From: Chrysophaeum taylorii
Lineage: Eukaryota > Sar > Pelagophyceae > Pelagomonadales > Pelagomonadaceae
Direction of reading: 5' to 3'
NCBI GenBank assembly: GCA_029834535.1
Contig: JAQMWT010000466.1
Span: 150,931-214,930, forward strand
DNA length: 64,000 bases
A program made the position numbers and the translations under genes. The notes beneath the pieces were generated by a model. It had not been told where the DNA came from. It made no database searches and saw only the letters and a list, made by a program, of their open reading frames with translations. Shown here one piece after another: positions 3,835 to 52,328 of the stretch (positions are counted from its first letter, which is position 1; every line of letters starts with the position of its first letter).

Positions 3835-6672
3835 CTAAGGGTCAAACTGTCCAGTAGATACATCCTGCGGTTGGTAGTCGACCACAGTGGATAGATCAAT
3901 TCGATTAGCGGAGACAGTGCGAAGGTGAGCTTCAATGGCATTACCTTTAGGATGGAACCAGAGGCGAAGTGAGCGGTTTTCCGGCTTCTTGAGGTAGCGA
4001 AGCAAATGCTCTAGCATTTGGACGTGAACATACGTGGGTGCATGCATACCACGCGAACATCTGCCCAAGGCTTGCGAGAAGTCAGGTCTGCAGGCAACTT
4101 GCATGAACACCAGCTTGCCAAGGAGGGTGGCAAAGTGCGAATTGATGTACAACTCTGTTTCAGAGCTGGGAGTGCCATCTTTATACTTGAAGGACGATGA
4201 CATAGGATATTTAAGCGGGGTCAGTTGCTGCAAGACTGGGTGATCAGCGAAGAGTTCATCCAGCTTGGCTTGCACATCCAGAGAAATGGAACCGTCAGAT
4301 GTGCGACACACACGCATGCCTAGGAGGGTATGGACAGGTTCAAACTGCTCTACAGCATACCGTTTGTGGAGGGCATCCTGTAGTTCAGTACGAAGAGGGT
4401 CGTCATTGGACACAATAACAATGTCGTCTACAGACAGACTGCATACGACGAACTTAGCATGTGCGGATACTCGAGCATATAGGCAAGAGTCCGAATGCAG
4501 GCGTTTGTAGCCAAGGCTACGGAAGAAGCCGTCTATCTCTTTGTTCCAAAGAGATGGTGATTGCCGAAGTCCATAAAGTGACTTCAGCAGTTTCGGTAGA
4601 CGTCGGCCTTTGTACTTAGCGTCATTGGGGTCGATAAGCTTGATGCCGTCTGGTAACTGAACATAGACGTTGGCATCAATGTCAGACTGAACGAAGGCGT
4701 TCGGGACGTCTGCATGGTAGACAGGCAATTGCTTGTATGGGGCAATAGCTAGTAGTACCCGGATTGCGGTCATGGTGGCCATGGGGCTGAAGGTGCCAAA
4801 GAAATCGGCGCCAAGAGATGCTAGGAAGCCACGTAGCACGAGGCGAGCCTTGTGCTTAACGTATTTGCCTGCAGAGTCTGTTTTAATCTTCAGCACCATC
4901 TTGCTGTCAATAGGACGAGAGACACCGTCGGGTAAGGAAAGTTTGAAGCAGCCAAAGCGGATAATGTCGTGGAGTTCCTTGGCGATGGCCTTGAGGTAGG
5001 CGTGCCTGTTTTCAGGCGACAAACCGTGGAGGCACTTGAGTTTATATTCGTCAATGGAAACGTCCGCTTCTTGGACCTTATATTCGTCAGGACCAACAAT
5101 GGCTGGTGAATTATAGTTTAGCGACATTGCGGTCGAGGCAGTGTGCGCAACTTCGGAATAAGCGGAAACAGCGTCAGTAGGAGTAGTAGAGGCAGATTCC
5201 AGTTGAATATGGATAGTAAGGTCGGTGTGTAAGACCTGGGTGATAAACTCTGTAGAGACCAGAAGGTATTCCTCCAAGTCAGCCAGAGATGCAGAAGTAG
5301 CGCCAAACTCGGAGGAGTTGTGATCAATAAAGCTGGTCGGCGCCAGGTACGTAAGTGCATATTGTAAGGAAGAAGTGCCGAAGGCAGCAGCGTGTTCAGT
5401 GAACGCAGATAAAAGGGGCTGAGGAATGGGGCACGCAGGTGAACCATCAGCAGTTAAAAAGGTTGCAGCTGGGATGCTGGATGCGCACTTGGCGTGGGCG
5501 AAGTAACCATCGACGTGCGGGTAGCGGGCAAGTAAGTCAGTGCGCAACGGGAGAAGAAGACGAGCTAACAACGCATGTTCCCCCTCTGAGCAGATAGCAG
5601 ACCAGAGGATACCACCACGGAGATGAAGGGCGGAGAGGGCGGGAGACTTGAACGTAAGAAAGTGGTGGCGAAGATCCCAGCGGAAATCGGCGAGTTTGCC
5701 ACCAGCGGCTTTGTAAGCACCAATAGTAGACGCTTGTAACCGGGCTTGGATAGTTTTCATAGAAGTGGCCTTGCGGGTGTTGGGCTGTTTGGAACCTGGG
5801 ACAAGAATGAGGTCATCTTGTGCAAAAAGGTCTTTGTAAGAAGGAAGCAAGGGCGGCGGTGACATAGAGCCAGAATCGTCGGCGAGAGTGTTAGAAGAGG
5901 GAGAAGAGGCAGGAGCAGGGGACGAAGAAGGAGCTGAAGGAGGTGGGGAGTGCCCCCTCTGAGGATGAGGAGTCCGTGTCCCCCTCTGAATGACATGGTC
6001 TTGGATAGCGGCGTGGGGTGTGAGCGAGAAAGGCGCGGGAGGAGCGTGAGGCGGAGGAGCAAGTTCAGGATCAGGAGTAGGATGCTGAAGCATGTAGAGG
6101 AATTGCAGCTTGGACGAAACACGAATTTGTCCGTTTTCAGGGTTGAGGACGACGTCAGCGAGATGGTCGACGCGTGGGGAGACGAGCGGGTTTTGCGCGT
6201 TGGCGCAACAGAGATATAAATATTTGCGGCGGCACGGTTCCCACTTGTGGTGTTCATGGGGCTCCAATAGAAGGTAACATTCAGCGCCAAAAATCTTGAG
6301 CATGTCATGTTGGGGAGTGTTGAGTTGGTTGTAGAGTAGCTGTTGCGGACTCAGGATAGCATGATGAATGCGCTCGAGCGTGGCGTTCGGGAGAAGGTTG
6401 TAGCTTTGAACGGTGTGTATCACCGCCCACGGAAACATGATGGCTGGTTCCACGATCTTGGCGCCACGATAGTGAGCATTAAGGAGAGAACGAAGGCGAG
6501 TTGAGGAGGCGGAGGCGATGAAACCGATGGCGGACTCAACTTCAAAGTTAAAGTGGTGCATGTACGGCGGGAAGGCGATGAGTTGAATGCCCTTATCGAC
6601 GCGGTACGGGGAGGTAATGTGCTGGCTAAAGTAGGGCTTGAAGGCATCGGAGTAGAGGGTGCGCATGTGCAC
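3835..6672 (-). CDS. Element 1 Pol: integrase core (part) and reverse transcriptase
   Basis: This long frame (945 codons) begins inside the integrase core. The YSDAF motif (about 6640-6652) supplies the second catalytic Asp and FEVES the Glu. PWAVIHTVQSYNLLPN is the usual post-core Copia sequence. A Pro-rich linker follows, then the SLNY motif at 5114-5134. The RT follows with KARLVLRGF, the first catalytic Asp in HADVPNAFVQ, LYGLRQSP and the active-site box SVDD (near 4425-4440) in place of the usual YVDD. All residues needed for RT activity appear present. The upstream integrase half is in another frame because one T was lost near 6691 relative to element 2. Confidence 0.9.
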   Translation of the reverse strand: MHMRTLYSDAFKPYFSQHITSPYRVDKGIQLIAFPPYMHHFNFEVESAIGFIASASSTRLRSLLNAHYRGAKIVEPAIMFPWAVIHTVQSYNLLPNATLERIHHAILSPQQLLYNQLNTPQHDMLKIFGAECYLLLEPHEHHKWEPCRRKYLYLCCANAQNPLVSPRVDHLADVVLNPENGQIRVSSKLQFLYMLQHPTPDPELAPPPHAPPAPFSLTPHAAIQDHVIQRGTRTPHPQRGHSPPPSAPSSSPAPASSPSSNTLADDSGSMSPPPLLPSYKDLFAQDDLILVPGSKQPNTRKATSMKTIQARLQASTIGAYKAAGGKLADFRWDLRHHFLTFKSPALSALHLRGGILWSAICSEGEHALLARLLLPLRTDLLARYPHVDGYFAHAKCASSIPAATFLTADGSPACPIPQPLLSAFTEHAAAFGTSSLQYALTYLAPTSFIDHNSSEFGATSASLADLEEYLLVSTEFITQVLHTDLTIHIQLESASTTPTDAVSAYSEVAHTASTAMSLNYNSPAIVGPDEYKVQEADVSIDEYKLKCLHGLSPENRHAYLKAIAKELHDIIRFGCFKLSLPDGVSRPIDSKMVLKIKTDSAGKYVKHKARLVLRGFLASLGADFFGTFSPMATMTAIRVLLAIAPYKQLPVYHADVPNAFVQSDIDANVYVQLPDGIKLIDPNDAKYKGRRLPKLLKSLYGLRQSPSLWNKEIDGFFRSLGYKRLHSDSCLYARVSAHAKFVVCSLSVDDIVIVSNDDPLRTELQDALHKRYAVEQFEPVHTLLGMRVCRTSDGSISLDVQAKLDELFADHPVLQQLTPLKYPMSSSFKYKDGTPSSETELYINSHFATLLGKLVFMQVACRPDFSQALGRCSRGMHAPTYVHVQMLEHLLRYLKKPENRSLRLWFHPKGNAIEAHLRTVSANRIDLSTVVDYQPQDVSTGQFDP
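5114..5134 (-). other. SLNY boundary motif, site 3 (element 1)
   Basis: 21-nt repeat coding STAMSLNY between the integrase C-terminal linker and RT. Equivalent to 52329-52349 in element 2. Confidence 0.8.
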
Positions 6673-16943: not shown

Positions 16944-19900
16944 TCATTTCCAGGTGGTGCACCGTTCGCCGCAGTATATACAGTGCGTGGCGCTTTGCGG
17001 GACCTCGTGGGAGCACTTGGTGCAGACGATGGGTTTTCCGCGCGACGGCCGCGCGGCTAGGTTGGCGATGAGATCACGCTTGTGCTGTTGGTCGGCGTCG
17101 GCCTGGAGCTGGGCTTTGGCGAGGAGGTCGAGGACGCGGTGGAGAAGGGCGCTCGCCTGGACGAGCTCCGGGGTGTCCTCGAAGGCACCCTTCGTCCAGA
17201 GCTCCCTGGCCCTCGAGACGGCCGCGCTCGTGTCGCGAACGGTCCGCTCGGCCGCCGCGACGCGCTTCAGGAGGGCGCGGCGCTTCGGGCTGACCTCGAC
17301 CCGCACGACCTTTTTTTTGCCGCTCTCGTCGTCGTCGTCGTCGTCGAGCAGGGAATCCCACTCGAAAAGGAGCGCCGCAGCGAGGTAGGCGCCGTACCTG
17401 ATTTGGTCGAGACACGCCGCCTTGGCGGCTTTTTGCTCTGGGGAGTCGTCGTCCGCGCGGAAGCGCGGGTCCTCGTAGACGCGCTCGCCCGTCTCGCCGT
17501 GCTCGAAGCAAAAGTTGCCGCGTTCGTCGCGAGACTCCATCCAAAACGGTGCCGCGTCCTCGTCGACGACCTTGACGAGGCCGGTAAGCGAGTTGAACCA
17601 CCGAGTCTCGTCGACCTTCTCCCAGCGTTTGGACTCGTCCTCGAGCTCCTTGGCTCTGCGCGCGAGGTTCTTGAGGTCGGCACGTCGGGCGCGGCGGAGT
17701 TCGAGCTGCGGGCGGTACGCCTGGTCGAGCATCGCCCACTCTCCGCGCGCGTCGTACAGTTGCACGCGGTCGGCGTTGGCCTCGAGATCGAGCCACTCGT
17801 AGTCTCCCGAGCCGTCGTGGTACTCGACGCGATACCTCTTCCGGCGACGGTGGAACTTGGCGAGCGTCCCTTCGTACCACTGGTCCATCGACGGCCAGTA
17901 GACGCGAACGCTGCAGCCGACGAGCTCCGCGTCGACGGGATCAACCAACGGATTCTCCGAGACCTCTTCGCCCGTACGCGCGTTGAGCCACGTCGTCGCG
18001 CGCGACGCGGGGTCGATTCGCTCGACCCACGCGCTGTCGGGGCTGGCGTCGTCCTCGTCGTCCCCGCTGCTGCTGCTGCACGAGTCGCGGTCGAGCGCGG
18101 CGACGAAATCCTGGTAACGCCGGGTCGCGCTTTCGGCGCTCCGAAGGACTTCGAATCGCTGTCGGTTCAAGACGCACGCGGCCGTCTCGTTGAGGCGAAC
18201 GTGCCGCCACGCGAGGATGCGGCTCCCGCGGAACGCGCGCTGGATGTCGACGGCGGCGCGCACGCGGCGGGCACCCGCGGCGCGACGACGTCGCGCGTCC
18301 TGGCGGCCGAACAACCCGCGCGTACAACGTTGAACGACGCGCGCCGCGCCGTCTCGCGCGGCCGCGAGGCGCTCGGCGGCGCGCCTGAGGCGCGTTGCCT
18401 CGTTGCGGCACGCGACGACGCGGAATAATCCGACGATGCGCCGCGCCGCCCACGCCTCGAGCTCGTCGCGACGCCGCTTTTCGAGGCGGCGCCTCGTCAT
18501 TTCGCGGTACGCGAGCCTCTCTCGCACAACGCGCTGCGCGTTGTGCGCGGCGACGTCGGCGTCCTCGAGGAGCCGCGCCCGGAGCTGCGCGTAGACTTTG
18601 GCGTGCCGCCGCGCGAGGACGGCTCGCACGACCGCCGCGAGCCGCGTTGCCGCGGCGATGCTGCGGCGGGCGCGGCGAACGTCGCGGATCCGTTCGATCG
18701 CCGGCGCGGCGACGTCGTCGGCGCGCCGGCACGCGTAGCCGCGAAAAAGCGCCTGGAACAACGCGATCTCCCGGAGTTTGGAGCTTCGCAGATCGCGCTC
18801 GCGCGCGAGGGCGTGCGCGAACCGGCGGCCTTTGACCGCGCGCCAGCTCCGCTGAAGAACCCGGGCGCTCTCGGCGGCGCGGTCGGCCGCGCGATCGCGA
18901 TTGGCCCGGGCTCGTCGCGAAAACCTGAGCGCGCACCGCGCGAGCACGAGCGACGCCTTGTCCTGCTTGATAAACCACACAATCTCTCGCGCGATGCGGC
19001 GCCACCTGTAGAACCGGAAGAGCGTACAGATGAGCCGGGCCGATCGGTGCTCGAGCTCGCGCTGCCGAGCCTCGAGCGCGCGAGACGCGTGGTCTTCGAT
19101 TGGCGCGAACCCGAAAAACGTCGTCGCTTCGCGCACGAGCCCGACGCCGGCGATGAGGGAGCGGAGCGACCGCACGGTGACTTGTTCGCACCCCGTCACG
19201 TTGAGCGTGCGCAACGCGCGGCACCGCGTTGCGAGGGTGCCGAGGGCCCCCTCCGAGACGAGCTCGGCGCCGGCGATATCGAGCGTCGCGAGCCGCGGGC
19301 ACCCGGCCGCGAGCGCGGCGAGGCCCGAGTTCCTGATGGGTCCGGCGCGCGGCGCGAGAAGCGCGCGGAGCTCGCCGCACCATCGCCCGACAGCGCGGAC
19401 CGACCGGTCCCCAATCCCTCGGCATTCCCCGACGGCGAGGACCTCGAGGCGCCGACAACTCCTCGCGACGGCGACGACGCCCGCGTCCGAGAGACGCGCG
19501 TTTCCGGTGACCGCCAAGAATCGCAGCCGTCGGCACCCTGCCGCGACGGCCCTCAACGCGTCGTCGGTCATCTTGGAGCACCGCGAGATGTCGAGGGACT
19601 CGAGCCCTCGACACCCGAGCCGCGCGCACCCGAGCGAGCCGGCGACCCAGCCGCACGCCTCGGCCGTTAGGCGCTCGCACCGAGCCAGGTCCAGCCTCGT
19701 CAGGGTGCGGTGACAGCAGGAGACCACGGCCTTAATCCCGAGGTTCGAGATGTTCTCGCACCCGGCGAGCCGCAGCACCCTGAGCTCGAACGTCCGCGCC
19801 GCGAACGCCTCGACGTCCTCGTCGGACGTCGCCGTCTGCGACAGGTCGACCGCCGTCAGCGACTCGCCGAGCGCGAGCGACAGCGAGCGCATTTTCTTGA

Positions 19901-20342
19901 GGAGAGGGCCCACCGTCCACGCCGAGGAGGACGACAGGTTCAACGTCTTGCCGCGCGCGACGGGGAACGAGGCGTCGTCGTCGTCGTCGCCGCCCGCGAG
20001 GAGTCGTTCGCACCACTCGACGACCGTGGTGGTGGTGGTGGTGGTGGTGGTCTTGGTGGCGGTGTGTCGTCGCTTTTCGTCGTCGTCGGCAAGAGCGCAG
20101 GCCCCCTCCCACAGTTGGGCATCGGTCAGCGCGACGCCTCGGAGGTCGAGGTTGCGCACCGAGGGAGGAAACTGCGCCAAGAGCTGTCGCGTCGAGACAT
20201 GCGGAAACGACGCCGCCGCCGCCTTGTTCTGCTGCTGCTTCTTCCCCCTCGCCTCGTCGATCGCCATGCGTATTCCAATGTTTTTGCCGTGCCAATAGAG
20301 CGGCCCCCGACGAAGGTCGAGGTCCGCCCGGGCGAGGTCCAT
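16944..20342 (-). CDS. LRR - IQ - Tudor-like - zinc ribbon scaffold protein
   Basis: 1,132 residues starting at ATG 20342 (ATG 20267 is an alternative). Residues ~155-400 are cysteine-containing leucine-rich repeats of the FBXL/AMN1 kind (LRVLRLAGCENISNLGI, LESLDISRCSKMTDDAL, LRTLNVTGCEQVT). Residues ~440-720 are a long Arg/Ala-rich helical region with IQ-like calmodulin sites (ARVLQRSWRAVKGRR, AAVDIQRAFRGSRI). A WW-like stretch (~770-795) leads to a Tudor-like domain (VRVYWPSMDQWYEGTL...YRVEYHDGSGDYEWLDL, ~805-850). It ends in a CxxC...CxxC zinc ribbon (CTKC...CIYC, ~1111-1125). A large cytoplasmic or ciliary scaffold is a reasonable guess. It is convergent with the fusion gene and divergent from the gene at 20463. 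Confidence 0.8.
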   Translation of the reverse strand: MDLARADLDLRRGPLYWHGKNIGIRMAIDEARGKKQQQNKAAAASFPHVSTRQLLAQFPPSVRNLDLRGVALTDAQLWEGACALADDDEKRRHTATKTTTTTTTTTVVEWCERLLAGGDDDDDASFPVARGKTLNLSSSSAWTVGPLLKKMRSLSLALGESLTAVDLSQTATSDEDVEAFAARTFELRVLRLAGCENISNLGIKAVVSCCHRTLTRLDLARCERLTAEACGWVAGSLGCARLGCRGLESLDISRCSKMTDDALRAVAAGCRRLRFLAVTGNARLSDAGVVAVARSCRRLEVLAVGECRGIGDRSVRAVGRWCGELRALLAPRAGPIRNSGLAALAAGCPRLATLDIAGAELVSEGALGTLATRCRALRTLNVTGCEQVTVRSLRSLIAGVGLVREATTFFGFAPIEDHASRALEARQRELEHRSARLICTLFRFYRWRRIAREIVWFIKQDKASLVLARCALRFSRRARANRDRAADRAAESARVLQRSWRAVKGRRFAHALARERDLRSSKLREIALFQALFRGYACRRADDVAAPAIERIRDVRRARRSIAAATRLAAVVRAVLARRHAKVYAQLRARLLEDADVAAHNAQRVVRERLAYREMTRRRLEKRRRDELEAWAARRIVGLFRVVACRNEATRLRRAAERLAAARDGAARVVQRCTRGLFGRQDARRRRAAGARRVRAAVDIQRAFRGSRILAWRHVRLNETAACVLNRQRFEVLRSAESATRRYQDFVAALDRDSCSSSSGDDEDDASPDSAWVERIDPASRATTWLNARTGEEVSENPLVDPVDAELVGCSVRVYWPSMDQWYEGTLAKFHRRRKRYRVEYHDGSGDYEWLDLEANADRVQLYDARGEWAMLDQAYRPQLELRRARRADLKNLARRAKELEDESKRWEKVDETRWFNSLTGLVKVVDEDAAPFWMESRDERGNFCFEHGETGERVYEDPRFRADDDSPEQKAAKAACLDQIRYGAYLAAALLFEWDSLLDDDDDDESGKKKVVRVEVSPKRRALLKRVAAAERTVRDTSAAVSRARELWTKGAFEDTPELVQASALLHRVLDLLAKAQLQADADQQHKRDLIANLAARPSRGKPIVCTKCSHEVPQSATHCIYCGERCTTWK

Positions 20343-22986: not shown

Positions 22987-24921
22987 TCAGTACACGAGTT
23001 CGCAGCCGCTCTTGGGTTCGCCACCCCAAGGGACGATGACGTCGCCAGCCTTGTAGAAGGCGTGGTTGGCGTCGACCGAGGAGCGGGAAATGTGGTTGAG
23101 GGGCTGGTAAAATGCGCGGGAGAAGTGACGCTTAGCCTTGTCCTCGAGGTCGCGGCGGATATGGCGGTAGTGCGGATGGTCGGCGAGATTGTTTTGCTCG
23201 AGGGGGTCCTCGGTGAGGTTGAAGAGAAAGTCCGTGAAGTCGCACCTCGCCTCCTGCGTGGAGTAGAGTTCGCGGTTCATCATGCAGAACATGGCCGTGC
23301 AGTTGGGGAGGTAACCTCGATCTGGTCTGTAGTAGGCGTCGTCGTCGGTGTGGCGCTTGAGGAGCTTGAGGTGTTTGTAGCGGTAGGCGATGATCGCGTC
23401 GGCGTAGGGGAGACGAAGGTCCTTCGGGGCGGAATCGGTGCCGTAGGAGAGATTGTAAGCAGCCGTCGAGATGTCGAAGACGATCTCGTCGCGAGGGCCG
23501 ACGGCGTCGAGGGGGGCGGCGAGCAGCGGCGAATCATCTTCGACTCGAACGGATTTTATCCAAGCCCAGTGGTCGACGCCGTCGATGCCGAGGTCGTCGG
23601 CGTCTGTTTTCGAAACGTCGCCGCCCGCGATGCCGGCGACGATGGTCGGGAGCCAGTCAACGTGGTGCATCAGTCCGCGGTAAACCCCGGTCGTCGGAAG
23701 AATCTCCGGAGCGTACACGAAGGCCGGGACCCTCACGCCGCCCTCGAAGTACTGGAATTTGCCGGAGCGAAGAGGGTAGTTCGAGCCCGGGACGTCGGCG
23801 GTGGGGCCGCCGTAGGTGCACGGCATGGCGCCGTTGTCGCTGTGGACGATGACGATTCCCAATCGGTTCGCGTCGCGAGCCGCTTCGACGACCAAGCCGA
23901 CGCCGTAGTCGACGACGTACATCGCTTCGGCGAATTTTATGCGGCCGTCGGTCGCGTTTGCGAGGCCGCGTCGCAGCTCGGCGAGGCCGCGAGAGCCCGG
24001 CTCGATCTCGTTGTCCGTTATGTTTTTTGAATCGTCGTTGTCGGCGTGAACGCCGTGGAACGCGAGCCACGCGAACAGAGGTCCGTCTGCCGTCGATATC
24101 GCCGCCGCAGCCTTTTTCGCGTACAACAGCGAGTCGTAAGTCTCGTCGAAGACATCCTCCGGCTTGCGCCACTCCCCCGTCGATGCCCAGCCCTCGAGCT
24201 GGTCGTATAACGGCCGATCCACGCCGCCGTGCGTGTAGTTTCGTCCGGTCGCGCGCGTCCGATAGTCTATCGCCGCCGTGAAGTAACCCAAGAAGTAGTC
24301 GAAACCGCGGTTCCACGGCAGCATGGCCTCGGCGCAGTGGCCGATGTTCCACTTGCCCCACCCAACCGTCGCGTACCCGAGCTTTTTGAGGCGCTCGGCG
24401 ATCGTCGCGTACCTCAGCGGCGTCGAAAAATTTGAGTACGCCGACACTTCCGAGTCCTGAAACCCAAGCCGATGCACCCACACCCCCGTCATCAGCGCGG
24501 CCCGCGACGGCGAGCACGACGGCTGCCCGTAATACTGACTCAGTCGCACGCCCTGCGAAGAGTACCTGTCGATGTTCGGCGTCGCCGAATACGCGGAAGG
24601 ATTCTGGTACCCGACGTCGTTGAACCCAGCGTCGTCGATCGTGATAAGCACGACGTCTGGTCGAGGCGTCGGGGCCGCCGGATGCGTGCCGAGAGCCTCC
24701 GCACCTTGGTCGTACCGCTGCCCTACCATGCCCACTACTACCACCCACAAGCATGCTAACGACCACGCAACCAACACCCGTCGCCTCGACATCCGCGTTT
24801 CCTCGGACCTTCTCCTCGACAAGTCCTCATCGAAAAACGTCAGACCCGATTGATCATGATGTTGATGATGATCCGACGACGACGACGACGACGACGACTT
24901 GGTCGCGCCATACGCCGCCAT
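22987..24921 (-). CDS. Arylsulfatase B-type sulfatase, membrane anchored
   Basis: 644 residues from ATG 24921. A Ser-rich cytosolic tail and one hydrophobic anchor (~49-67, VLVAWSLACLWVVVVGMVG) give a type II or signal-anchored topology. The sulfatase core starts at residue ~88 with VVLITIDDAGFNDVGY, where the two Asp bind calcium. CSPSRAALMTG (C136) is the CxPSR signature whose Cys is turned into formylglycine. GWGKWNIGH and HSDNGA add further active-site residues, and a C-terminal LFNLTEDPLEQNNL is typical of ARSB/ARSI enzymes. Several N-glycosylation sequons fit secretion. It probably removes sulfate from sulfated polysaccharides or glycans. An intron-free frame spans the whole gene. Confidence 0.92.
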   Translation of the reverse strand: MAAYGATKSSSSSSSSDHHQHHDQSGLTFFDEDLSRRRSEETRMSRRRVLVAWSLACLWVVVVGMVGQRYDQGAEALGTHPAAPTPRPDVVLITIDDAGFNDVGYQNPSAYSATPNIDRYSSQGVRLSQYYGQPSCSPSRAALMTGVWVHRLGFQDSEVSAYSNFSTPLRYATIAERLKKLGYATVGWGKWNIGHCAEAMLPWNRGFDYFLGYFTAAIDYRTRATGRNYTHGGVDRPLYDQLEGWASTGEWRKPEDVFDETYDSLLYAKKAAAAISTADGPLFAWLAFHGVHADNDDSKNITDNEIEPGSRGLAELRRGLANATDGRIKFAEAMYVVDYGVGLVVEAARDANRLGIVIVHSDNGAMPCTYGGPTADVPGSNYPLRSGKFQYFEGGVRVPAFVYAPEILPTTGVYRGLMHHVDWLPTIVAGIAGGDVSKTDADDLGIDGVDHWAWIKSVRVEDDSPLLAAPLDAVGPRDEIVFDISTAAYNLSYGTDSAPKDLRLPYADAIIAYRYKHLKLLKRHTDDDAYYRPDRGYLPNCTAMFCMMNRELYSTQEARCDFTDFLFNLTEDPLEQNNLADHPHYRHIRRDLEDKAKRHFSRAFYQPLNHISRSSVDANHAFYKAGDVIVPWGGEPKSGCELVY

Positions 24922-25158
24922 CACACCTACGTGTACGTACCCCAAATCCTACTCTCTCCTCTTCCTGCCACAAAAAACAACGTTGGGGGGTTCACTAACC
25001 CGCCTACGTTGATCGGGGGGATGCGGACGTGTTGCCACATACATGTGACCGACGGCGCAGCTTTCGTATACTTGTCGCGTGGTGCACCATCCAGTTGTGT
25101 TAGTTCCAAGGGCCATCTTCGAACCATCAGTGTGCTGGCGCGCGCCAAACCCTCGTCC

Positions 25159-26701: not shown

Positions 26702-28096
26702 ATGGCAATACTTTCGCGCGAAGAGGTGGCTCGGAGCTCTGCCGAAAGGCAGCAGGTCCAGCACCATCAACAGAATCAGGAATACGCTGCTGGAAAACCG
26801 TGCGACGAAGACGACGAAGTAACCGTGGTCGACGAGCACCGCGAAGCTTCGACGTCGTGGTCGCGGCTGTGCCATGGCGTCCTCAACAACGACTTCGTGA
26901 TCGCCCACGTCCTCACGCACCTGCGGCTCGCGGAGATGCTGAGGGCGGCGTCGATTCGCAGATGCTTTCTCGAGGCTTTGTGCCGGGTCGAAGAGGTCAA
27001 GATGACGTGCCGGTGCCTCTGCATGCCGTCGCTCATGTCGCGGTTCCGCGGGGCGCGGTGTCTGACGTTGGAGGGCGGGATCGACCTCTTTAACGCGATG
27101 GGTCTCCTCGCGTGGCCCCTCCAGACGTCGCTCGGGCAGGTGTGCCAACTGAATTTCGAGATTTCGGGTGACGAGATCGGCGACGACGCGCGAGGCTTCC
27201 ACGCTTGGGAGCGCGGGCTCACGACCCTAGCGCGCTCGGGCGCGCTCCGGGACATGAGTTACCTCACCTTTTCGTTTCGCGGGCGTCTCAAGGGCGTCGC
27301 GCACTACTTGACTCACGCCGCGTTCGAGGCAGTTTTTCTCGTCGAGAGACCTCGGCGCCTCCTGTCGCTCGAGTGCGCCTTGCTCGTCGCCGCGGGACAC
27401 CCCGAGATCGACGCGACGATCGCGGTCGAACTCTTGCGACGACACGCCGACCCGAACGCACTCACGCCGCGCGGCACGCCCGCGCTCCTGCTCGCCGCCG
27501 AGTCCAACAATCGCGACGTCGTTCGCGCGCTCCTCGGCGCCGGCGCCGACGCGACCTCGCGATCCGCCGTCCTCGGCAACAAGTCAGCCCTCCACTGCGC
27601 CGTCGCCAACACCTATTGGTACTCGTTCCGGGACGACCGAGACGACGCGCGCATCGTCGTTTATTCGACGCCCCTTCTCGAGAAAAGAAAGCGGCCCGCC
27701 GCCGTGCGCTTCGAACGCGCGGCCATCGTCGACCTCCTCGTCGTCGCGGGCGTCGACGTCAACGCGCGAGACGAACTCGGCAACACGCCCCTCATCACTG
27801 CCGTCGCCAGCTGCGGCGGCGACCTCGACTGGGACGCCAAGTCGGTTATTTGTACCGTCCACGCCCTCCTCTCTGCCGGCGCCGACGTCACTCTCAAAAA
27901 CAAGGCCGGCTACACGGCGTTGGACTCGGCGGTCGAGCTCGACAAGCCCATCGAGCTCCTCAGCACCCTCGCCGAGGCCGAGGTTGCAGCCTGCGCGAGG
28001 GGATCCGGCTCCGGAGCCGCCTCGCCGAGCCTGCTGCTGCCGCCAGACCTCAAACGCGCGCGCTTCGCTCGTGATACTTCTCACTTCTTTTCCTGA
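26702..28096 (+). CDS. Ankyrin-repeat protein
   Basis: 464 residues from ATG 26702. The N-terminal ~60 residues are polar and Gln-rich. A Leu-rich middle part (FVIAHVLTHLRLAEMLRAAS) resembles an F-box-like helix pair but is not convincing. Ankyrin repeats occupy about 215-420: LLVAAGHPEIDATIAVELLRRHADPNA, TPALLLAAESNNRDVVRALLGAGADA, AIVDLLVVAGVDVNARDELGNTPLITAVA and LLSAGADVTLKNKAGYTALDSAV. The protein ends in a basic tail that could enter the nucleus. A protein-binding adaptor role is likely; the partner is unknown. Confidence 0.88.
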   Translation: MAILSREEVARSSAERQQVQHHQQNQEYAAGKPCDEDDEVTVVDEHREASTSWSRLCHGVLNNDFVIAHVLTHLRLAEMLRAASIRRCFLEALCRVEEVKMTCRCLCMPSLMSRFRGARCLTLEGGIDLFNAMGLLAWPLQTSLGQVCQLNFEISGDEIGDDARGFHAWERGLTTLARSGALRDMSYLTFSFRGRLKGVAHYLTHAAFEAVFLVERPRRLLSLECALLVAAGHPEIDATIAVELLRRHADPNALTPRGTPALLLAAESNNRDVVRALLGAGADATSRSAVLGNKSALHCAVANTYWYSFRDDRDDARIVVYSTPLLEKRKRPAAVRFERAAIVDLLVVAGVDVNARDELGNTPLITAVASCGGDLDWDAKSVICTVHALLSAGADVTLKNKAGYTALDSAVELDKPIELLSTLAEAEVAACARGSGSGAASPSLLLPPDLKRARFARDTSHFFS

Positions 28097-29882: not shown

Positions 29883-30269
29883 GTCGTAGTCTGCGTTGCA
29901 CAACGAAAGCTCTGGCCGTTTATTCTTTCCTGCTTGGTGGACGACGGGTGCTTTGCGCCGCGGAGGGAGCTCGGCCTGCCTTGTGTATATGGCCTCTGGG
30001 TTCCAGCACCCCCTCCTACCCCCCTCATCTTTCGTTGCGCCCGTCGCTTGCAGGCACGTCCTTCAACGGGGTTCTCCTCCTCCTCCACCATTGTCCAGCG
30101 CGCGTAGAACCTCTTCTCCCGCTTCTGCGCGCCCGCGCGCCGAAGGAGACGAGGGCAGCAGCTCCAGTGCATTGGTAGGTAGGTAGGTAGGTGCGTGGGG
30201 ACCACCCACCGCACTAAGACGTATTACCCTCTTACCCTCTTACCACTAAGACGTATTATTACCCTTAGC

Positions 30270-30722: not shown

Positions 30723-33700
30723 CTACTTGCCGCGAGAGAGAGGCGTGACTAGGGCCACGGGCTCTCGCATGAGCGAGGCGATGCGGTCGGGCGAGAGCGG
30801 GCCGCAGACCGCAAAGGAGAAAGAGGAGTCGGTGAGCTCGGGAGGCGCGGGGTAGAGCGCGATTTCGTCGGCGTGGAAGAGGCGGGCGCACGCGGACGAC
30901 AAGCGCGCCTTGAGTTCGCGGGTCTCGACACCCTGCCCCGATGATGATCGCACTAGCGCGACCGCGGCCTCCGGTGGGAACGGCGCCGCGCGCGAGAGGA
31001 TGTCCAGGATGCGCGCGTCTCGTGGCCAACTCGGCGTCATCAAGTCGGCGATCTCGCGGAAGGCCGCCCTCACGCGCCAAGCGCGGGCGGCGACGCGGCC
31101 AATCTTGCCGGGCGGAGGGACCGAACCGTCGGCGACGGCGCTGGAGAACGCCGCCGCGAGGGCCCCGGGCGTGGCGCGCTCTCCGAATGAATCGAGCGCG
31201 CTCGAGAGCTCGTGCGTGCGCATCGCGTGCAGCCACGGTGCGCCGCCGATGCCGCGCGCGCGCAGAGCTATGTCCAGAGCGTCCAAAGCGCACACCGAGT
31301 CGACGTCCTCGGCGACAGGGCGCGCGCTTTCTTCGCCGACGAGCGCGACGCTCACGTCGACCTCGACGCCCGCGCGTGTTGTCAAAGAGAGCACGGGGCG
31401 GCGCGGGGAGCGGCCGAGGTACGCGCTGCCCTCGTCTCGGAGAAGCGTCGCGAGACGTTCGAGAAGCGCGAGGGCATCGCGACTCGACGCGCACGACGAG
31501 CCAACGCAGACGAGGTCTACGTCGGAGCGCCGCCCTCGCGGCCACGACCCCACAGCCTCGCATCGCCCTGTCGCCACGATTTGCTTGTAGCGCGCGTCGA
31601 CGAGCGCGATCGCGTCGCGGCCAGCGGCAGTCTCGCTCTCGGGTCGACGGCCACGCCCGAAGCACGCGAGCCACTGCTGGAGAGGGGGGGCATCCGAGTG
31701 GAGGGTCCGCGGGTCCACGGATCTGAACGCGACGTCCTCGCACACAATCGCGACCGTCGCGGCGACGGCCTCGCGCGAGGCGGCGTCGTCGTCGTAGTGG
31801 CAGAGATCGGCGAGTCGAGGGAGCGTTGCCACGATCTTCTCGACCGTGCGCGCCTTAAAGTCGGCCGTGCTGCCAGCGTCAGGCTTGAAACAGAAAGCGT
31901 CGAAGAGCGCGTCGGCGCGATAACGCCGCAGCAACCGTCGAACCGCCGACGCGCACGCCGCTACGCGGCCGGTCAAGAGCACGTGAACAGCGCTCGAGTC
32001 TCGCCGGGCGAGATCGTGGAGACGCGCGAGGGCCAGCAGCGGCGCGCACGGCCGGTCGGGGGCGAGGGATGTGGGGTCGTCGGGGCTCGGGAGCGACGCC
32101 CCGCCGCAAGGTGCCGTCTCGAGCAGCGTGCCGTCAAAGTCCCACACGTACGCGTTTGTCGCCGACTTCCACTCGCGAGACCGCGGCGCCGCGAAGTCGA
32201 CGACGACCCGAGCGGGCGTCGTCTTCTTGTTCGGCTTGCTGCTGCTCAGCAGAGCGTATTCGATGAGAGCGGTGGAGGTCGTGATGACTTCGCCCGACAC
32301 GAGTTGGACGCCGAGACGGCCTCGGACTGTTGTCGTTACTCCTTTCTCGCGCGGTGCCGTCTCGAACGACGAAAAGTCGAGCGCGCGCGAGTCCGCCGGG
32401 CGAAAGTTCGTCGCGTGCGCGATCGTGATGTGCCCGCGCCACCCGTCGTGCGGAAACGACGACTCGGACGCGAGCGCGACGCACGACACGGCGTGTGCGT
32501 TCGCGTCGGCGCTCGCGGGCCCGACGGCGAGCGAGACGCCTCGCCCCAGATTTTGTGCCGTCGCGCGCGCCTGCGCCGACCCCGCTGCTGGCCGGAACGC
32601 TACTGTCGCGTGGTGCGCTCGCACAACGGCTGACCGCGGAGGGTAGGCGCGCACGAGCTGCTGGCGCGATGCCTCGGACAGCACGACGCCAGCATATGCG
32701 ATTTGGCGCCGCGACGCGAGGGCGTCTAGCGCCGCTGCCGCTTGATCTCGCGCCCCATCGACGACGACGACGACGACGCGCGTGGCGTCGGTCGTTGTTG
32801 CCGGAAGCGCCTCCCAGCGGCACCAAGCCGAGTCGGCGTTGACGCCGTGCTCGCCGCGACTCGCGAGTCTCCGAGCGTCTTCGAGCGACGCGCACGCGAA
32901 CTCGACGACGCCCAACGACGCCCCGTGCTTCGCGGCGAGATCAACGTACGGCGCCATCTCCCGCAGACCGCAATTGGTGTTGTCGATGACGACAATCCCG
33001 ACACGCGCCTGTATCGCTTTGGCAGCCGCGCCCCGGCACGCGCCGTGGGCTGTGTCGAGTTTTGCCGCCGAGAAGCCGCCGTTCTTGGCGCCGAAATAGG
33101 CGTCGGCCGAGCACGCCTCGCACGAGACGCTCGCCTCGGCGGCCAACGCGCCCAACTTTCTGGCCATCGTCGTCTTGCCGGAGCCCGGCACGCCGCGTAG
33201 GATAACAACAAAGCTCGTACTCTTCGCGTCGTCGAGGGCGCCCGTGCTCACCACGTCGTCGATGAGCGCCCGCGCAGCGTCGTCGATCGCGTCGAACGTC
33301 GCGACTTGGTTTTTCAACGTCGTCGTCATCTCCGCCAACGCGGGGTAATACGTCGCCAAAGTTCTGTAAAAGCCGCTCGGCGCGGCGCCACCGTTGAGGC
33401 CGGCGACGCAGAGGTGCACGCCGTCGACTTCCTGGACGCCGAAGATCGTATCCGGGCCGAAGCCGCTGCGTCGCCACGCCGTCTCGTCAAAGTACCCCAG
33501 CGAGCGCGCGAGCTGTCTCGGAAGTTTTGCGACGGTCACGTGCGCGCGCGTGGTGGCGCGACGACCGGCCGTGTTGAAGCCCGCCTGCTCGAGCGAGTCG
33601 TAGAGGTCGTTCGAGAGCGCGTTCAGTCGACCTCGCTCTTTCGGCGCAACGTACACGACTTGTCCGCGCACGCTGAACGAGTGAACGCCCTCGAGCGACA

Positions 33701-35741
33701 AGACGACCGGTCGGTTCCCCGCGAACATGTGGCGACCGAGCAACGCGGGGACCTCGTCGCGCAGGACTTGATCAAGGCGACGACGTTCGAGTTCGCCGTC
33801 GACGCGCGCCGTCGCGAGCGTGACGTGCAGCGAGGACGTCGGTTGGAGCGCCGAGTCGAGCCTCGGCTCGAAGTGAACGAGCGCATCCTGCAGCGCGCGG
33901 ACCCGCGACACGATCGCCGGAGCGTCGACCTTGATGGCGAGGAACAAGTTGGGTCTTCGTGGGTCTTTGATGTCTTTCTTGTAGACGACGGTTTTGTTCC
34001 GAGATGATGAGTCAGATTCTCCACGGGGGGCGACAACAACAGTGGGTTCTCTCCCCTCTTGGTGCGACGACGGCGACGATGATGCCAGGTCCCGCGCGAC
34101 AGGGTTCTCGAGGTGGTCGAGCCGCGTTTGCGAGTCAACGTCGCATACCTCGTCGACGCGGGTATCCTCCGCGGATGCCAGGTACCGCGCGACGAGGTTC
34201 TCGAGGTCGAGCCGCGTTTGCGAGTCAACGTCGCAGACTTCGTCGCGGATATCCTCCGTGGACATTCCGTTTTCGTGCGCGAGCGTAGCCAGCGCCTTGG
34301 GCAAGAAGGCCTCGACGCGAGCGGCGTCGCGCGAGACGAGCAGCGGGGGAAAGGCTTGGTCGTAGTCGTCGTCGTCGGTCTCCAGCAGGCTCGATAGTTC
34401 GAAGAAGCCGCGGTTGACTGTTCGGTCGCGGGCGCCGTGCGCTGCAAGGTAGGCACGACTCTTGATCTTGATCCTTCGTCCTCGCGCGTCGCGCGCGACA
34501 AAACCTTCGCGGTACGCTGGCAATCGTCGCGTGAACTGGAGCAGCCGCGCCAGGCGCGTGGTTCCCGGCATCACGGCGTAGGCGTTCGGCGACAGGACGC
34601 GTGCCCGGGCGACGACGTCGCCGTCGAGGTCCTCCTCGACCTCCTCGCCGCCAGGGAGAGCGCGCGTGAGGAGGTGGACGAGGCGCGGCGCGACGTGGGG
34701 CGCGATGACACGCGCACGAGGGTGGAGGAGCTCGAACGCGTAGCACCGGTCCTGCCTCAGCGCCTCGCACAGCTTGTCGAAGCCGCCGCTCGTTGCGTTG
34801 GCCGCCTCGACGAAGAGGCTCCCGACCGAGACGCAATCGGCGTCGTCGTCGTCGATCTCGTCGCCCCACCGAAACCGTGCGTCGAAAGCGTCGATGCAGC
34901 CGTTCGAGGCGACGCGCCAGCGGCCGTCCACAAAGTAGACCTTGGTCAGCAGCCCGTCGCACTTCTCGGTGACTACGGCGTCGTCGTCGACGGCGACGTC
35001 GGCCGCGCGATGATCTTCAACTTCCCAAAATTTGTCAAAGGCCGCGCACAGGAGCCGGTTCGTGTCCTGCTCGTACACGCAGCCGCGACAATGGTCGAGC
35101 GCGAGGTGAGCGAGGTCTGCCGTCGTCGTCGTCGTCTGCGGGGCGAACTGCGTAGCGTCCGCGTACATCGCCGAGTAGGCCTTAACTTTGCCGAGCGTCT
35201 TCGTAGCGACCTTGCACCGCAAGCCCAGGAGCACCGGGCGCACGTCGGAGAAGGCCTCGACGCCGCGCTCGCGAAGGTAGCGCTGCAACGGCGTCCCGAC
35301 CTCTCCGAGGGTCGTCGGCCTGCCGATTGTGTTCCCGCAGCCCGAGAGATCGCATCGCTCGAAGGGCGGCGTAGACCCGAAGACGCGATCGAGCCTCGTC
35401 CGCTTGTCCCAGACCACCGCGTCGTCGAATTTGAAGTAGACGATGCGGTGCTGCGGCACCGCGAGCGCGTCCATCGCCGCCTGCTCGATGCGGCCCCAGC
35501 TCGAGAAAGCCGACAACGGCTTCTCCACGATGGTGTTGAGAATGCGGTCGCGGTACCCCACGACGCACCGGCCCGCCTCGACCTCTGGGTCCCACAGAAA
35601 CCGATTTATCACGTCGAGCGCCACCCGCATGATGCTTCCGCCCCAACCGCCGTTTGGTCGCCGACACAATTCTTTCGGATGATCGCTCGGGAGTGTTCTC
35701 CGAGCGTTTCTGCGAGCCGTTGCCACCTCACTCCAGAGCAT
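30723..35741 (-). CDS. Multi-domain RNA repair protein (ligase, kinase, phosphatases, nucleotidyltransferase)
   Basis: About 1,672 residues from ATG 35741 (ATG 35630 also possible). In order: MJ1316-type RNA-end domain (~38-123, HRIVYFKFDDAVVWDK..RLDRVFGS); T4 Rnl1-like RNA ligase with KCDG (catalytic Lys260), FELLHP (336-341), EGFVARD (412-418) and KIKS (425-428); 2H phosphoesterase with two HVT motifs (639, 734); P-loop kinase GVPGSGKT (850-857) with DNTN (920-923); a second 2H-like module with HAT (1044) and HIT (1104); HAD phosphatase DFDGT (1201-1205); pol-beta-type nucleotidyltransferase GSW...SDVDL (1398-1411) with a third Asp near 1462. Domains of this kind open cyclic phosphates, clean and phosphorylate ends, reseal RNA and add nucleotides, so the protein could repair cleaved tRNA alone. 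All key residues look intact. A 30-residue tandem duplication lies at ~501-553. Confidence 0.88.
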   Translation of the reverse strand: MLWSEVATARRNARRTLPSDHPKELCRRPNGGWGGSIMRVALDVINRFLWDPEVEAGRCVVGYRDRILNTIVEKPLSAFSSWGRIEQAAMDALAVPQHRIVYFKFDDAVVWDKRTRLDRVFGSTPPFERCDLSGCGNTIGRPTTLGEVGTPLQRYLRERGVEAFSDVRPVLLGLRCKVATKTLGKVKAYSAMYADATQFAPQTTTTTADLAHLALDHCRGCVYEQDTNRLLCAAFDKFWEVEDHRAADVAVDDDAVVTEKCDGLLTKVYFVDGRWRVASNGCIDAFDARFRWGDEIDDDDADCVSVGSLFVEAANATSGGFDKLCEALRQDRCYAFELLHPRARVIAPHVAPRLVHLLTRALPGGEEVEEDLDGDVVARARVLSPNAYAVMPGTTRLARLLQFTRRLPAYREGFVARDARGRRIKIKSRAYLAAHGARDRTVNRGFFELSSLLETDDDDYDQAFPPLLVSRDAARVEAFLPKALATLAHENGMSTEDIRDEVCDVDSQTRLDLENLVARYLASAEDTRVDEVCDVDSQTRLDHLENPVARDLASSSPSSHQEGREPTVVVAPRGESDSSSRNKTVVYKKDIKDPRRPNLFLAIKVDAPAIVSRVRALQDALVHFEPRLDSALQPTSSLHVTLATARVDGELERRRLDQVLRDEVPALLGRHMFAGNRPVVLSLEGVHSFSVRGQVVYVAPKERGRLNALSNDLYDSLEQAGFNTAGRRATTRAHVTVAKLPRQLARSLGYFDETAWRRSGFGPDTIFGVQEVDGVHLCVAGLNGGAAPSGFYRTLATYYPALAEMTTTLKNQVATFDAIDDAARALIDDVVSTGALDDAKSTSFVVILRGVPGSGKTTMARKLGALAAEASVSCEACSADAYFGAKNGGFSAAKLDTAHGACRGAAAKAIQARVGIVVIDNTNCGLREMAPYVDLAAKHGASLGVVEFACASLEDARRLASRGEHGVNADSAWCRWEALPATTTDATRVVVVVVDGARDQAAAALDALASRRQIAYAGVVLSEASRQQLVRAYPPRSAVVRAHHATVAFRPAAGSAQARATAQNLGRGVSLAVGPASADANAHAVSCVALASESSFPHDGWRGHITIAHATNFRPADSRALDFSSFETAPREKGVTTTVRGRLGVQLVSGEVITTSTALIEYALLSSSKPNKKTTPARVVVDFAAPRSREWKSATNAYVWDFDGTLLETAPCGGASLPSPDDPTSLAPDRPCAPLLALARLHDLARRDSSAVHVLLTGRVAACASAVRRLLRRYRADALFDAFCFKPDAGSTADFKARTVEKIVATLPRLADLCHYDDDAASREAVAATVAIVCEDVAFRSVDPRTLHSDAPPLQQWLACFGRGRRPESETAAGRDAIALVDARYKQIVATGRCEAVGSWPRGRRSDVDLVCVGSSCASSRDALALLERLATLLRDEGSAYLGRSPRRPVLSLTTRAGVEVDVSVALVGEESARPVAEDVDSVCALDALDIALRARGIGGAPWLHAMRTHELSSALDSFGERATPGALAAAFSSAVADGSVPPPGKIGRVAARAWRVRAAFREIADLMTPSWPRDARILDILSRAAPFPPEAAVALVRSSSGQGVETRELKARLSSACARLFHADEIALYPAPPELTDSSFSFAVCGPLSPDRIASLMREPVALVTPLSRGK

Positions 35742-48600: not shown

Positions 48601-50160
48601 TATACAAACTGCCACTGGACAACAACGTGCCTGTCATCAAACTTCTCCAACCCTTGTTACTACTGGCCGAGATGACACCACCCCACAAGTACTGTCATCA
48701 AGACCACATAACTGTGGCCAATCTCACCCATGCCACACTCGATTACTGTGTTGATGTTGTTGACAGGTTCCCGACCTACCTATGTGGCGACTACCAATCT
48801 AGGGAAGGATGGATCTGCATCGCACGCAGGTATTCTACTGGACCCAATCAACATACTCTCATGGCCTATCCACCAACCATGCCCCTTCTTTAATATCGTG
48901 GATGACATACAAGCCTTTCCTAAACGACTTTGGCTATCCAAAGATATCGCCAAAGACTGGATCCGGGTGTTCCCCGATCCACCAGATGACCCGTTCCTAA
49001 AACTTTTGTATCTTACTCTCGTACAGGTTCTGTTCAGCTTACCATGACTGACATTGAAACACTCAATTTACTATTTCTTCGCCTTCACTCACAACAGGCT
49101 CACGAGCAACGCACGCACTCTGTTCAATCCGAGTGCACTTATCATCAGCTGTGTTTCAAACGCTCCTCCATGGAACCACTTCCACAAGCAACTAATCCAT
49201 TGCGTGTCAAGGCCTTCACCATATTATACAACTTGTTTGCCAGATTGCACACTACCTCACCCACTCCTGTGTCCTATTACATAACCGTTTTCGAAACTGA
49301 CCAACCATCACATAGGTTACTACTTACAACCTCATCAACATCACACAACACCTACTTCTTAACCAGTGGCCACCACATTGACGGCAACCTCACCATAGAA
49401 AACGCCCCGCCACCAAATATCATGCTTCCATTGACGCGTTTGGAAGCACGTATACGTTTACTGCCTCCAACGTTCCCCGCGACAGAGACAGATCTGTACA
49501 TTTGGAGCCGTTTATGGGTTACCTATGGATCATCCAAGCCCTTCCTCAAGTTGGCTCCGCTGCCGCTTATGGTACTGCCATACAAAAGCTCTTGTCCAGA
49601 TGCTCTCTTGTGATGCCTGGCTGCCTTACCTACAAGGCCACCGACAGTTCTTTCGACTACAAGGATTCTCATTTTGCTCTGGAAGATCACCACTTGTCAC
49701 ATAGTCGCTATATAGGGTATCTTCGTGGAAGTGACCGCAAACTCGGCTCTAAAATCCACTCCATGCTTGCTCCATTGCCCACCGTCCGAGGGTATGCAAA
49801 CATTATCTTACTCGACCCTCGCAACGGGAAACTACGCTATCCCACTCGACCGGAGTTGATTCGTGCTAACAACCACACCAAACAACTGGAATCTTTCCTC
49901 TTGTCTCTTCGCCACGACCTTTGCTGCGACATGCTCAGCAATGCTCTACCTGCCGGTACGTACAACACACTGTACAAGCACCTCTCGCTCCTCGTTGCCG
50001 ATATTAAGTCCCTTATGTTGGACCCTACCTTCCAACATGCTGCTGCCGTGATGAAGAAATCCTATGTATCCACCTTCATGACCTTTGATCCGGCCTCCAC
50101 CACGTGCAGCACAGATACCTTGTCTTTGGCACAAGCCTTCATGACCTCCAGCAACTGCTT

Positions 50161-50181
50161 GACCGAAATGTCGTTAAACTA
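50161..50181 (+). other. SLNY boundary motif, site 2 (element 2)
   Basis: 21-nt repeat coding LTEMSLNY before integrase, inside the open 49502-51703 frame. Confidence 0.8.
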
Positions 50182-52328
50182 TATGTCTTCGTCACCCTAC
50201 GAAGATACTCTAGCTACTTGTGATGATGAGGACGCACCCCCAAGTGACCCTGCTGCGCACCAGGATGACGACGCACCGCCTCCTCCTACCTTGGACACCG
50301 AACTCAAGTTCGATGTTCGGCGCAAACGTCGTATCCCCGCTCATCCCATTCCTCGCAAATCCCTCGCACACGGATCTGCTGAATACCTCAACGCCAAAGA
50401 ACGTGCCAATCGCTTCCACCGGGTGCACCACTGCCCCGACAACGTTGCAGCCAAGGCCCCCAACGTACTGGCTCGCCCTGGCTTCTCTGCCTCAGATCTA
50501 CCGTATCGCGACTTATGCACCGACTGCATCGCGCACAACAAGCGCCACCCGCACAAGCACTTCAATCCGACCAAGCCCTATTTTGAGCAAACTCACAAAG
50601 CCGGCGAAGTCTGGGCGTGCGACGGCGGCTATGTGACAATTCCGTCAGAATGGGGTGGCTTCACTCATATCATTGTGTTCAAAGAACTTATCTCGAAGTT
50701 TCTCTTGGTGTACTTTACACGTACCACCAACGCCACGGAGTTCACTCAAGCTCTGGACTTTGTGTATGACTTTTGTCGTACACAACTCAACGTGCACCTG
50801 CGCACCCTCTACTCCAATGCTTTCAAGCCCTATTTTAGCCAGCACATTACCTCCCCGTCCCGCGTCGATAAGGGCATTCAGCTCATCGCTTTCCCGCCGT
50901 ACATGCACCACATTAACTTTGAAGTTGAGTCAGCCATCGGCTTCATCGCCTCCGCCTCCTCAACTCGCCTTCGCTCTCTCCTTAATGCTCATTATCGTGG
51001 CTCCAAGATCGTGGAACCAGCCATCATGTTTCCCTGGGCGGTGATACACACCATCCAAAGTTACAACCTTCTCCCGAACGCCACGCTCGAGCGCATTCAC
51101 CATGCTATCCTGAGTCCGCAAAAGCTACTCTACAATCAACTGAGCACTCCCCAGCATGACATGCTCAAGATCTTCGGCGCTGAATGCTACCTTCTATTGG
51201 AACCCCACGAGCACCACAAATGGGAACCGTGCCGCCGCAAATACTTATATCTATGTTGCGCCAACGCGCTAAACCCGCTCGTCTCCCCACGCGTTGACCA
51301 TATTACCGACGTCGTCCTCAACCCTGAAAACGGACAAACCCGTGTTTCGTCCAAGCTGCAATTCCTCTACATGCTCCAGCATCCTACTCCTGATCCTGAA
51401 CTTGCTCCTCCGCCTCACGCTCCTCCCGCGCCTTTCTCGCTCACACCCCACGCTGCTATCCAAGACCATTACATTCAGAGGGGGACACGGACACCTCATC
51501 CTCAGAGGGGGCACTCTCCACCTCCCTCAGCTCCTTCTTCATCCCCTACTCCTGCTTCTCCTCCTCCGACGCTCCCGTCGACGATTCTGGCTCTATGCCA
51601 CCGCCGCCCTTGCTTCCCTCTTACAAAGAACTTTTTGCACAAGATGACCTCGTTCTTGTATCAGGCTCCAAACAACCTAACAACCGCAAGGCTGCCTATA
51701 TGAAAAATATCCAAGCCCGGCTGCAAGCGTCTACTATTGGTGCTTACAAAGCCGCTGGTGGCAAACTCGCCGATTTCCGCTGGGATCTTCGCCACCACTT
51801 TCCTACGTTCAAGTCTCCCGCCCTCTCCGCCCTACATATCAATGGTGGTATCCTCTGGTCTGCTATCTGCTCAGAGGGGGAACATGCGTTGTTAGCTCGA
51901 CTTCTCCTCCCGTTGCGCACTGACTTACTTTCCCGTTACCCTCACGTCGATGGTTACTTCGCCCACGCTAAGTGCGCATCCAGCATCCCAGCCGCAGCTT
52001 TTCTAACTGCTGATGGTTCACCTACGCGCTCCATTTCTTAGCCTCTTTTAGCTGCGTTCACTGAGCACGCCGCTGCCTTTGGCATCTCTTCACTACAGTA
52101 TGCACTTACGTATCTGGCTCCGACCAGCTTTATCGATCATAATTCTTCCGAGTTTGGCGCTAATTCTGCATCTCTGTCTGACTTGGAGGAATACCTTCTG
52201 GTCTCTACAGAGTATATCACTCAGGTCTTACATGCCGACCCTACTATCCATATTCAACTGGAATCTGCTTCCTCTACCCCTCCGACTGACGCTGTTTCCG
52301 CTTATCCCGAAGTCGCGCACACTGCCTC

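Follow-up and report, generated by a model that had tools for sequence, protein, structure and literature searches.

A predicted one-chain RNA repair protein with seven modules in the alga Chrysophaeum taylorii

Background

Which task could be served by a single algal polypeptide that carries predicted active sites for trimming, rejoining and perhaps extending broken RNAs? The question is raised by a minus-strand reading frame, found in a stretch of 64,000 nucleotides from the pelagophyte Chrysophaeum taylorii (contig JAQMWT010000466.1, positions 150,931 to 214,930; indicated as "the window" in the following), whose product, here called the repair protein, is a chain of seven modules of six kinds. 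Judging from its sequence, it is probably a eukaryotic member of the "Swiss Army Knife" class of RNA repair proteins, which on a single chain would heal and seal RNA cut by endonucleases, carrying 2',3'-cyclic phosphate and 5'-OH ends; tRNA is the most likely substrate.

In eukaryotes, RNA repair apart from tRNA splicing is still ill-defined. A protein with all the needed predicted active sites in one chain, which could act on broken RNAs alone, is a ready tool for its study, and singles out ochrophyte algae, which host giant viruses, as a place where RNA-damage conflicts may be sought in eukaryotes. A human 5'-3' RNA ligase, C12orf29, was reported in 2023 (PMC9931718).

Reading frame and modules

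The frame runs from ATG to TAG without internal stops (Table 1). The longest stop-free run between positions 30001 and 36500 reaches 1,743 codons, while the maximum for 200 random sequences, generated by a first-order Markov model of the same segment, is 538 (mean 308); the GC fraction at third codon positions stays within 0.75-0.85 when the frame is divided into 12 blocks, each no longer than 150 codons. Taken together, these results exclude a chance frame. The protein listed for the same contig (P0002, 1,635 amino acids (aa)) starts at M38, position 35630, where solid conservation also begins in alignments with relatives: translation may start there, 37 codons downstream of 35741. A search of the whole genome (70.8 Mb, 697 contigs) gave one match, the repair gene itself, which was also the sole match, in two pieces, when the relative P0006 was used as query.

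The evidence considered here consists of the content and order of the domains, their catalytic residues, their conservation and their layout along one chain. From the N-terminus, the modules are: an MJ1316 domain, a T4 Rnl1-type RNA ligase, an AKAP7-type 2H phosphoesterase, a P-loop kinase, a CPD-type 2H phosphoesterase, a T4 Pnkp-type HAD phosphatase and a PAP/TUTase-type nucleotidyltransferase. An earlier note on this sequence had described a one-chain frame, six kinds of RNA-end domain and a second 2H module. The frame is confirmed, with the quoted motifs in order, and the six kinds are supported by Pfam, or, for the nucleotidyltransferase, by family profile and fold; the second 2H module is supported less firmly, by Pfam matches in relatives and invariant motifs. 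Domain content also bears out the idea that parts for both healing and sealing are present in one chain.

Five modules have Pfam profile support in the repair protein itself. The MJ1316 domain is predicted to read the cyclic-phosphate ends of RNA. The ligase features the KxDG lysine, the downstream nucleotidyltransferase motifs and the Rnl1 profile that characterize the T4 Rnl1 type, and T4 Rnl1 stands ahead of fungal Trl1 structures in its fold list. In the kinase, GxPGxGKT, SAD and DNTN are invariant in three aligned sequences, the repair protein included; as in T4 Pnkp, a DxDxT HAD phosphatase follows, here after the second 2H. PF10307 (HAD_SAK_1) scores 30.7 bits in the repair protein, against a cut-off of 25.6, and 34.0 in P0004; scores are below the cut-off in P0003 (18.9), P0008 (17.0) and P0011 (18.8), and no match is listed for P0005, P0006 and P0007.

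The second 2H is the weakest module assignment, and is proposed on the basis of relatives and invariant motifs. PF08302, the phosphodiesterase domain of fungal tRNA ligases, matches it in three of eight members, the repair protein not being among them (best E-value 5.3e-7), and LigT in two of eight (best 0.0016); the whole P0011 protein scores 24.9 bits with PF08302 (cut-off 23). Four His/Thr positions are invariant across the eight aligned sequences, from which P0006, where the second HxT motif is missing, was left out. The nucleotidyltransferase is backed by family profile and predicted fold, which beyond the palm may be of the PAP/TUT type; the GS...SDxD motif and the third catalytic Asp are present, and the triad is invariant in five aligned sequences. 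No CCA-adding enzyme is among the matches listed by profile and fold, which does not amount to an exclusion.

Table 1. Coordinates of the repair gene, its predicted modules and other features. Positions refer to the window, except where a locus and contig are given.
Feature	Residues (aa)	Position	Strand	Motifs and evidence
Single open reading frame (ORF)		30723..35741	-	1,672 codons + stop; likely start 35741 or M38 (35630)
MJ1316 domain	38-113	35403..35630	-	PF04457 E=1.2e-18, full profile; 8.1e-19 in genome search
T4 Rnl1-type ATP-dependent RNA ligase	150-480	34302..35294	-	EKCDG 259 (KCDG 260, catalytic Lys K260), FELLHP 336, EGFVARD 412, KIKS 425
First 2H phosphoesterase, AKAP7 type	597-797	33351..33953	-	HVT 639, HVT 734; PF10469 E=1e-18
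P-loop polynucleotide kinase	845-966	32844..33209	-	GVPGSGKT 850, SAD 878, DNTN 920; PF13671 E=1.9e-13
Second 2H phosphoesterase, tRNA-ligase CPD type (weakest assignment)	1005-1175	32217..32729	-	HAT 1044, HIT 1104; relatives
HAD phosphatase, T4 Pnkp 3'-phosphatase type	1190-1346	31704..32174	-	DFDGT 1201, LTGR 1256, K1296, DDD 1317
Pol-beta-type terminal ribonucleotidyltransferase, PAP/TUTase-like	1352-1672	30726..31688	-	GSW 1398, SDVDL 1406 (D1407, D1409), EVDVS 1460 (third Asp D1462)
Leucine-rich-repeat neighbour		16944..20342	-
Sulfatase neighbour		22987..24945	-
Ankyrin-repeat neighbour		26702..28096	+
Retrotransposon frame		3835..6672	-	RVT_2 and SH3_retrovirus matches
Retrotransposon frame		49502..51703	+	weak SH3_retrovirus match only
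RtcB gene		L036:866-3820 (contig C548)	+	in-frame insert of ~470 aa
Stand-alone MJ1316-like ORF	197 aa	L037:1372-1965 (contig C390)	-	26.4 bits in genome search, 24.7 for whole ORF (cut-off 26.3)

Relatives and conservation

Relatives were collected by three protein searches, each scoring only the approximately 8,000 candidates with the most shared words; 12 distinct proteins, the repair protein included, were found. All seven modules, recognized by Pfam, motif or alignment, are present in four of them (P0001, P0003, P0004, P0008). P0003, an environmental sequence, is 49% identical over 98% of the length of the repair protein. P0004, from Aureoumbra lagunensis (Pelagophyceae), the nearest named relative, is 42% identical over 89%, and ends after the third Asp. 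P0008 comes from Triparma laevis f. inornata (Bolidophyceae). The seven-module chain is common to two ochrophyte classes, Pelagophyceae and Bolidophyceae: the survey of domain order in other algae, advised by the earlier note, finds it in A. lagunensis and T. laevis.

The other relatives are less complete. P0007, an ORF derived from an MMETSP transcript and labelled 'type:complete', contains six modules and lacks the nucleotidyltransferase. P0009 and P0010 are fragments, the former near-identical to P0006 in their overlap. The more distant P0011, of eukaryote type (1,394 aa, on a 120 kb contig), features every module but the ligase, along with a C-terminal R3H domain, suggesting that gain or loss of the ligase involved the whole module at once; P0012 and P0013 contain MJ1316 and AKAP7-type 2H only. 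Ligase, first 2H and nucleotidyltransferase are each missing in some relatives. The chain had been described as unusually complete: this holds for the union of both healing routes with a nucleotidyltransferase, while its novelty was overstated, the full set occurring in one third of the proteins found and the kind being already named in Pfam. The nucleotidyltransferase is also present in P0011.

These comparisons bear on the idea that the modules of the 5' part and those of the 3' part belong to distinct genes, or that the chain is in part an inactive relic, held together merely by an open frame. The weak scores of the second 2H and the nucleotidyltransferase, taken on their own, would agree with it; the codon-position bias throughout all blocks, the extended identity to P0003 and P0004, the catalytic motifs retained along the whole chain and the occurrence of six modules in the complete, transcript-derived P0007 make it extremely improbable.

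Relatives outside eukaryotes were sought by scanning contigs for two short peptide patterns. Among viral contigs 37 stretches matched, among prokaryotic genome contigs 19; none was confirmed in either set. With two short patterns per scan, absence is unproven. When the model of the MJ1316-ligase part was compared with viral models by Foldseek, phage and giant-virus RNA ligases were listed: such matches between predicted folds would fit an Rnl1 ancestry, and say nothing on origin.

Proposed repair pathway

The steps proposed here are drawn from the families to which the modules belong. The MJ1316 domain would recognize the cyclic-phosphate end, and a 2H domain would open the ring; the HAD phosphatase, judging from its fold and residues, would then strip the remaining phosphate, generating a 3'-OH. 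The kinase would phosphorylate the 5'-OH, and the ligase, after self-adenylation on K260, would seal the ends. By way of the HAD phosphatase, the junction would be mainly clean. More speculatively, the PAP/TUT-type domain might extend 3' ends by further nucleotides, in order to refill trimmed ones ahead of sealing or to tail those beyond repair, and the AKAP7-type 2H might clear 2'-5' or cyclic ends not handled by the CPD-type one.

According to passages of PMC3400036, T4 Pnkp converts the 2',3'-cyclic phosphate to a diol and the 5'-OH to a 5'-phosphate, after which Rnl1 restores the tRNA-Lys cut by PrrC, while yeast and plant ligases use a 2H domain instead, leaving a 2'-phosphate. By its predicted domains, the algal chain carries parts of both 3'-end healing routes, T4 (HAD) and yeast/plant (2H), along with a terminal nucleotidyltransferase. 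A more ambitious version, which we regard as doubtful, would see in it an autonomous machine, able to decide whether a junction is left marked (by a 2'-phosphate) or clean and to rebuild lost nucleotides by its own polymerase, which marine ochrophytes would retain against viruses or ribotoxins, in addition to RtcB splicing.

Several observations weigh against a repair function served by the complete chain. No relevant or significant Pfam match was obtained for the second 2H piece of the repair protein, and none for its nucleotidyltransferase; the second 2H family profile had no relevant match among solved structures, and its comparison with the first 2H by hhalign aligned 11 columns, covering one HxT stretch, with a probability of 1.1%. 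In P0008 the kinase features DNTS instead of DNTN, and a shortened lid. P0005 and the Tetraparma gracilis protein P0006 lack the first 2H and the nucleotidyltransferase, and the gene model of P0006, besides missing an HxT motif, breaks in the second 2H and in the HAD. These gaps in P0005, P0006 and P0008 indicate either that parts of the set are non-essential or that the gene models are faulty. The confidence of the predicted models is medium (pLDDT 69.0 and 67.5), and none of the eight other window ORFs scanned hints at RNA repair or defence. Five of the seven modules being matched by Pfam, the profile check of each segment leaves two unmatched, the number at which the earlier note would take its proposal as refuted; on balance the proposal stands, given the profile and fold of the nucleotidyltransferase and the relatives and motifs of the second 2H.

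That the two 2H modules arose by tandem duplication in recent times was also considered and is unsupported, since their profiles are dissimilar beyond the single HxT stretch; both modules may derive from a very old common 2H ancestor.

Genomic context

The genome also codes for RtcB and archease, and contains two ORFs of the tRNA-intron-endonuclease type. Tpt1/KptA (PF01885) was not found in a six-frame search of this genome, where an exon-split gene could escape; the same search was positive in three of 14 prokaryotes, all its positive controls being prokaryotic. Taken together, these findings point, indirectly, to splicing by the RtcB pathway and to a separate repair role for the chain described here. 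They bear on the reading, also put forward in the earlier note, of the protein as the tRNA-splicing ligase of the alga, a Trl1-like enzyme with extra domains. Trl1-type ligation requires Tpt1 for the clearance of the 2'-phosphate, and a Pnkp-type HAD would strip the phosphate that the Trl1 route retains. On the other side, fungal Trl1 structures come after T4 Rnl1 in the fold list of the ligase, the two endonuclease-type ORFs would fit a splicing role, and the relative order of ligase, kinase and CPD-type 2H is that of yeast Trl1 (passages of PMC3400036 and PMC5434554). The splicing reading is weakened as a whole, and we consider it unlikely. A defence against anticodon nucleases, put forward in the earlier note as well, would be another possible role. 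A search with PF09511 gave no match in the genome or in the controls and missed the repair gene itself: it is uninformative on other ligases.

Equally separate from damage repair would be a role as a ligase for non-conventional mRNA splicing or RNA processing (Ire1/HAC1-like, circular-RNA or snRNA 3'-end processing). The PAP/TUT-type domain would fit 3'-end processing; no clue is provided by gene neighbours or substrates, and the patchy domain content of the relatives suggests that the function is accessory and not central, making this role very unlikely. Repair of cleaved RNA is the function that we favor.

The algal RtcB gene contains an in-frame insert, whose first residue is Cys and which ends with His-Asn before a Cys; it matches the intein-type Hom_end_hint domain (4.5e-12), and is apparently an intein. 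The genome also features a stand-alone MJ1316-like ORF, with scores around the cut-off (Table 1). The neighbours of the repair gene listed in Table 1 do not suggest an RNA-repair cluster. Both retrotransposon frames lie in stretches of lower GC and strong GC skew (~1-12 kb and ~46-62 kb), flanking the GC-rich middle of the window.

Comparison with known systems

The repair protein resembles "Swiss Army Knife" RNA repair proteins in its HAD_SAK_1 match above cut-off, and in the presence of six kinds of RNA-end-processing domain on one polypeptide. The class was reportedly defined by Burroughs and Aravind in 2016; its RNA repair activity, as far as we know, is a computational prediction. Across the lineages of eukaryotes, MJ1316 has been described in fusion with RNA-repair domains (PMC6514570), and a table row of a phage paper applies the "Swiss Army Knife" HAD label to a T4 Pnkp-like phage kinase (PMC7765460). 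The Pfam family name and the printed MJ1316 fusions indicate that the kind is already known; no ochrophyte protein of this kind is among the matches listed in the open-licence literature, and priority for the exact seven-module layout is not claimed.

Animal LENG9-type proteins (P0012, P0013) share the MJ1316 and AKAP7-2H families, while ligase, kinase, HAD and nucleotidyltransferase motifs were not found in them. The bacterial Pnkp1-Rnl-Hen1 complex differs in being composed of three separate proteins, the Hen1 methylase among them, and, as far as we know, contains neither 2H nor MJ1316. To our knowledge, MJ1316, 2H and terminal nucleotidyltransferase domains are absent from T4 Pnkp and Rnl1, and MJ1316, HAD, nucleotidyltransferase and a second 2H from Trl1/RNL. 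With the T4 pair the algal protein shares the Rnl1-type ligase, the P-loop kinase and the Pnkp-type HAD phosphatase; in T4, ligase and kinase/phosphatase are on separate polypeptides, and the 2H of Trl1/RNL differs in leaving a 2'-phosphate (both from passages of PMC3400036). Trl1/RNL enzymes carry, on one chain, the succession of ligase, kinase and CPD-type 2H (PMC3400036 and PMC5434554). The repair protein follows this order, with a putative CPD-type 2H, and adds an AKAP7-type 2H, inserted between ligase and kinase.
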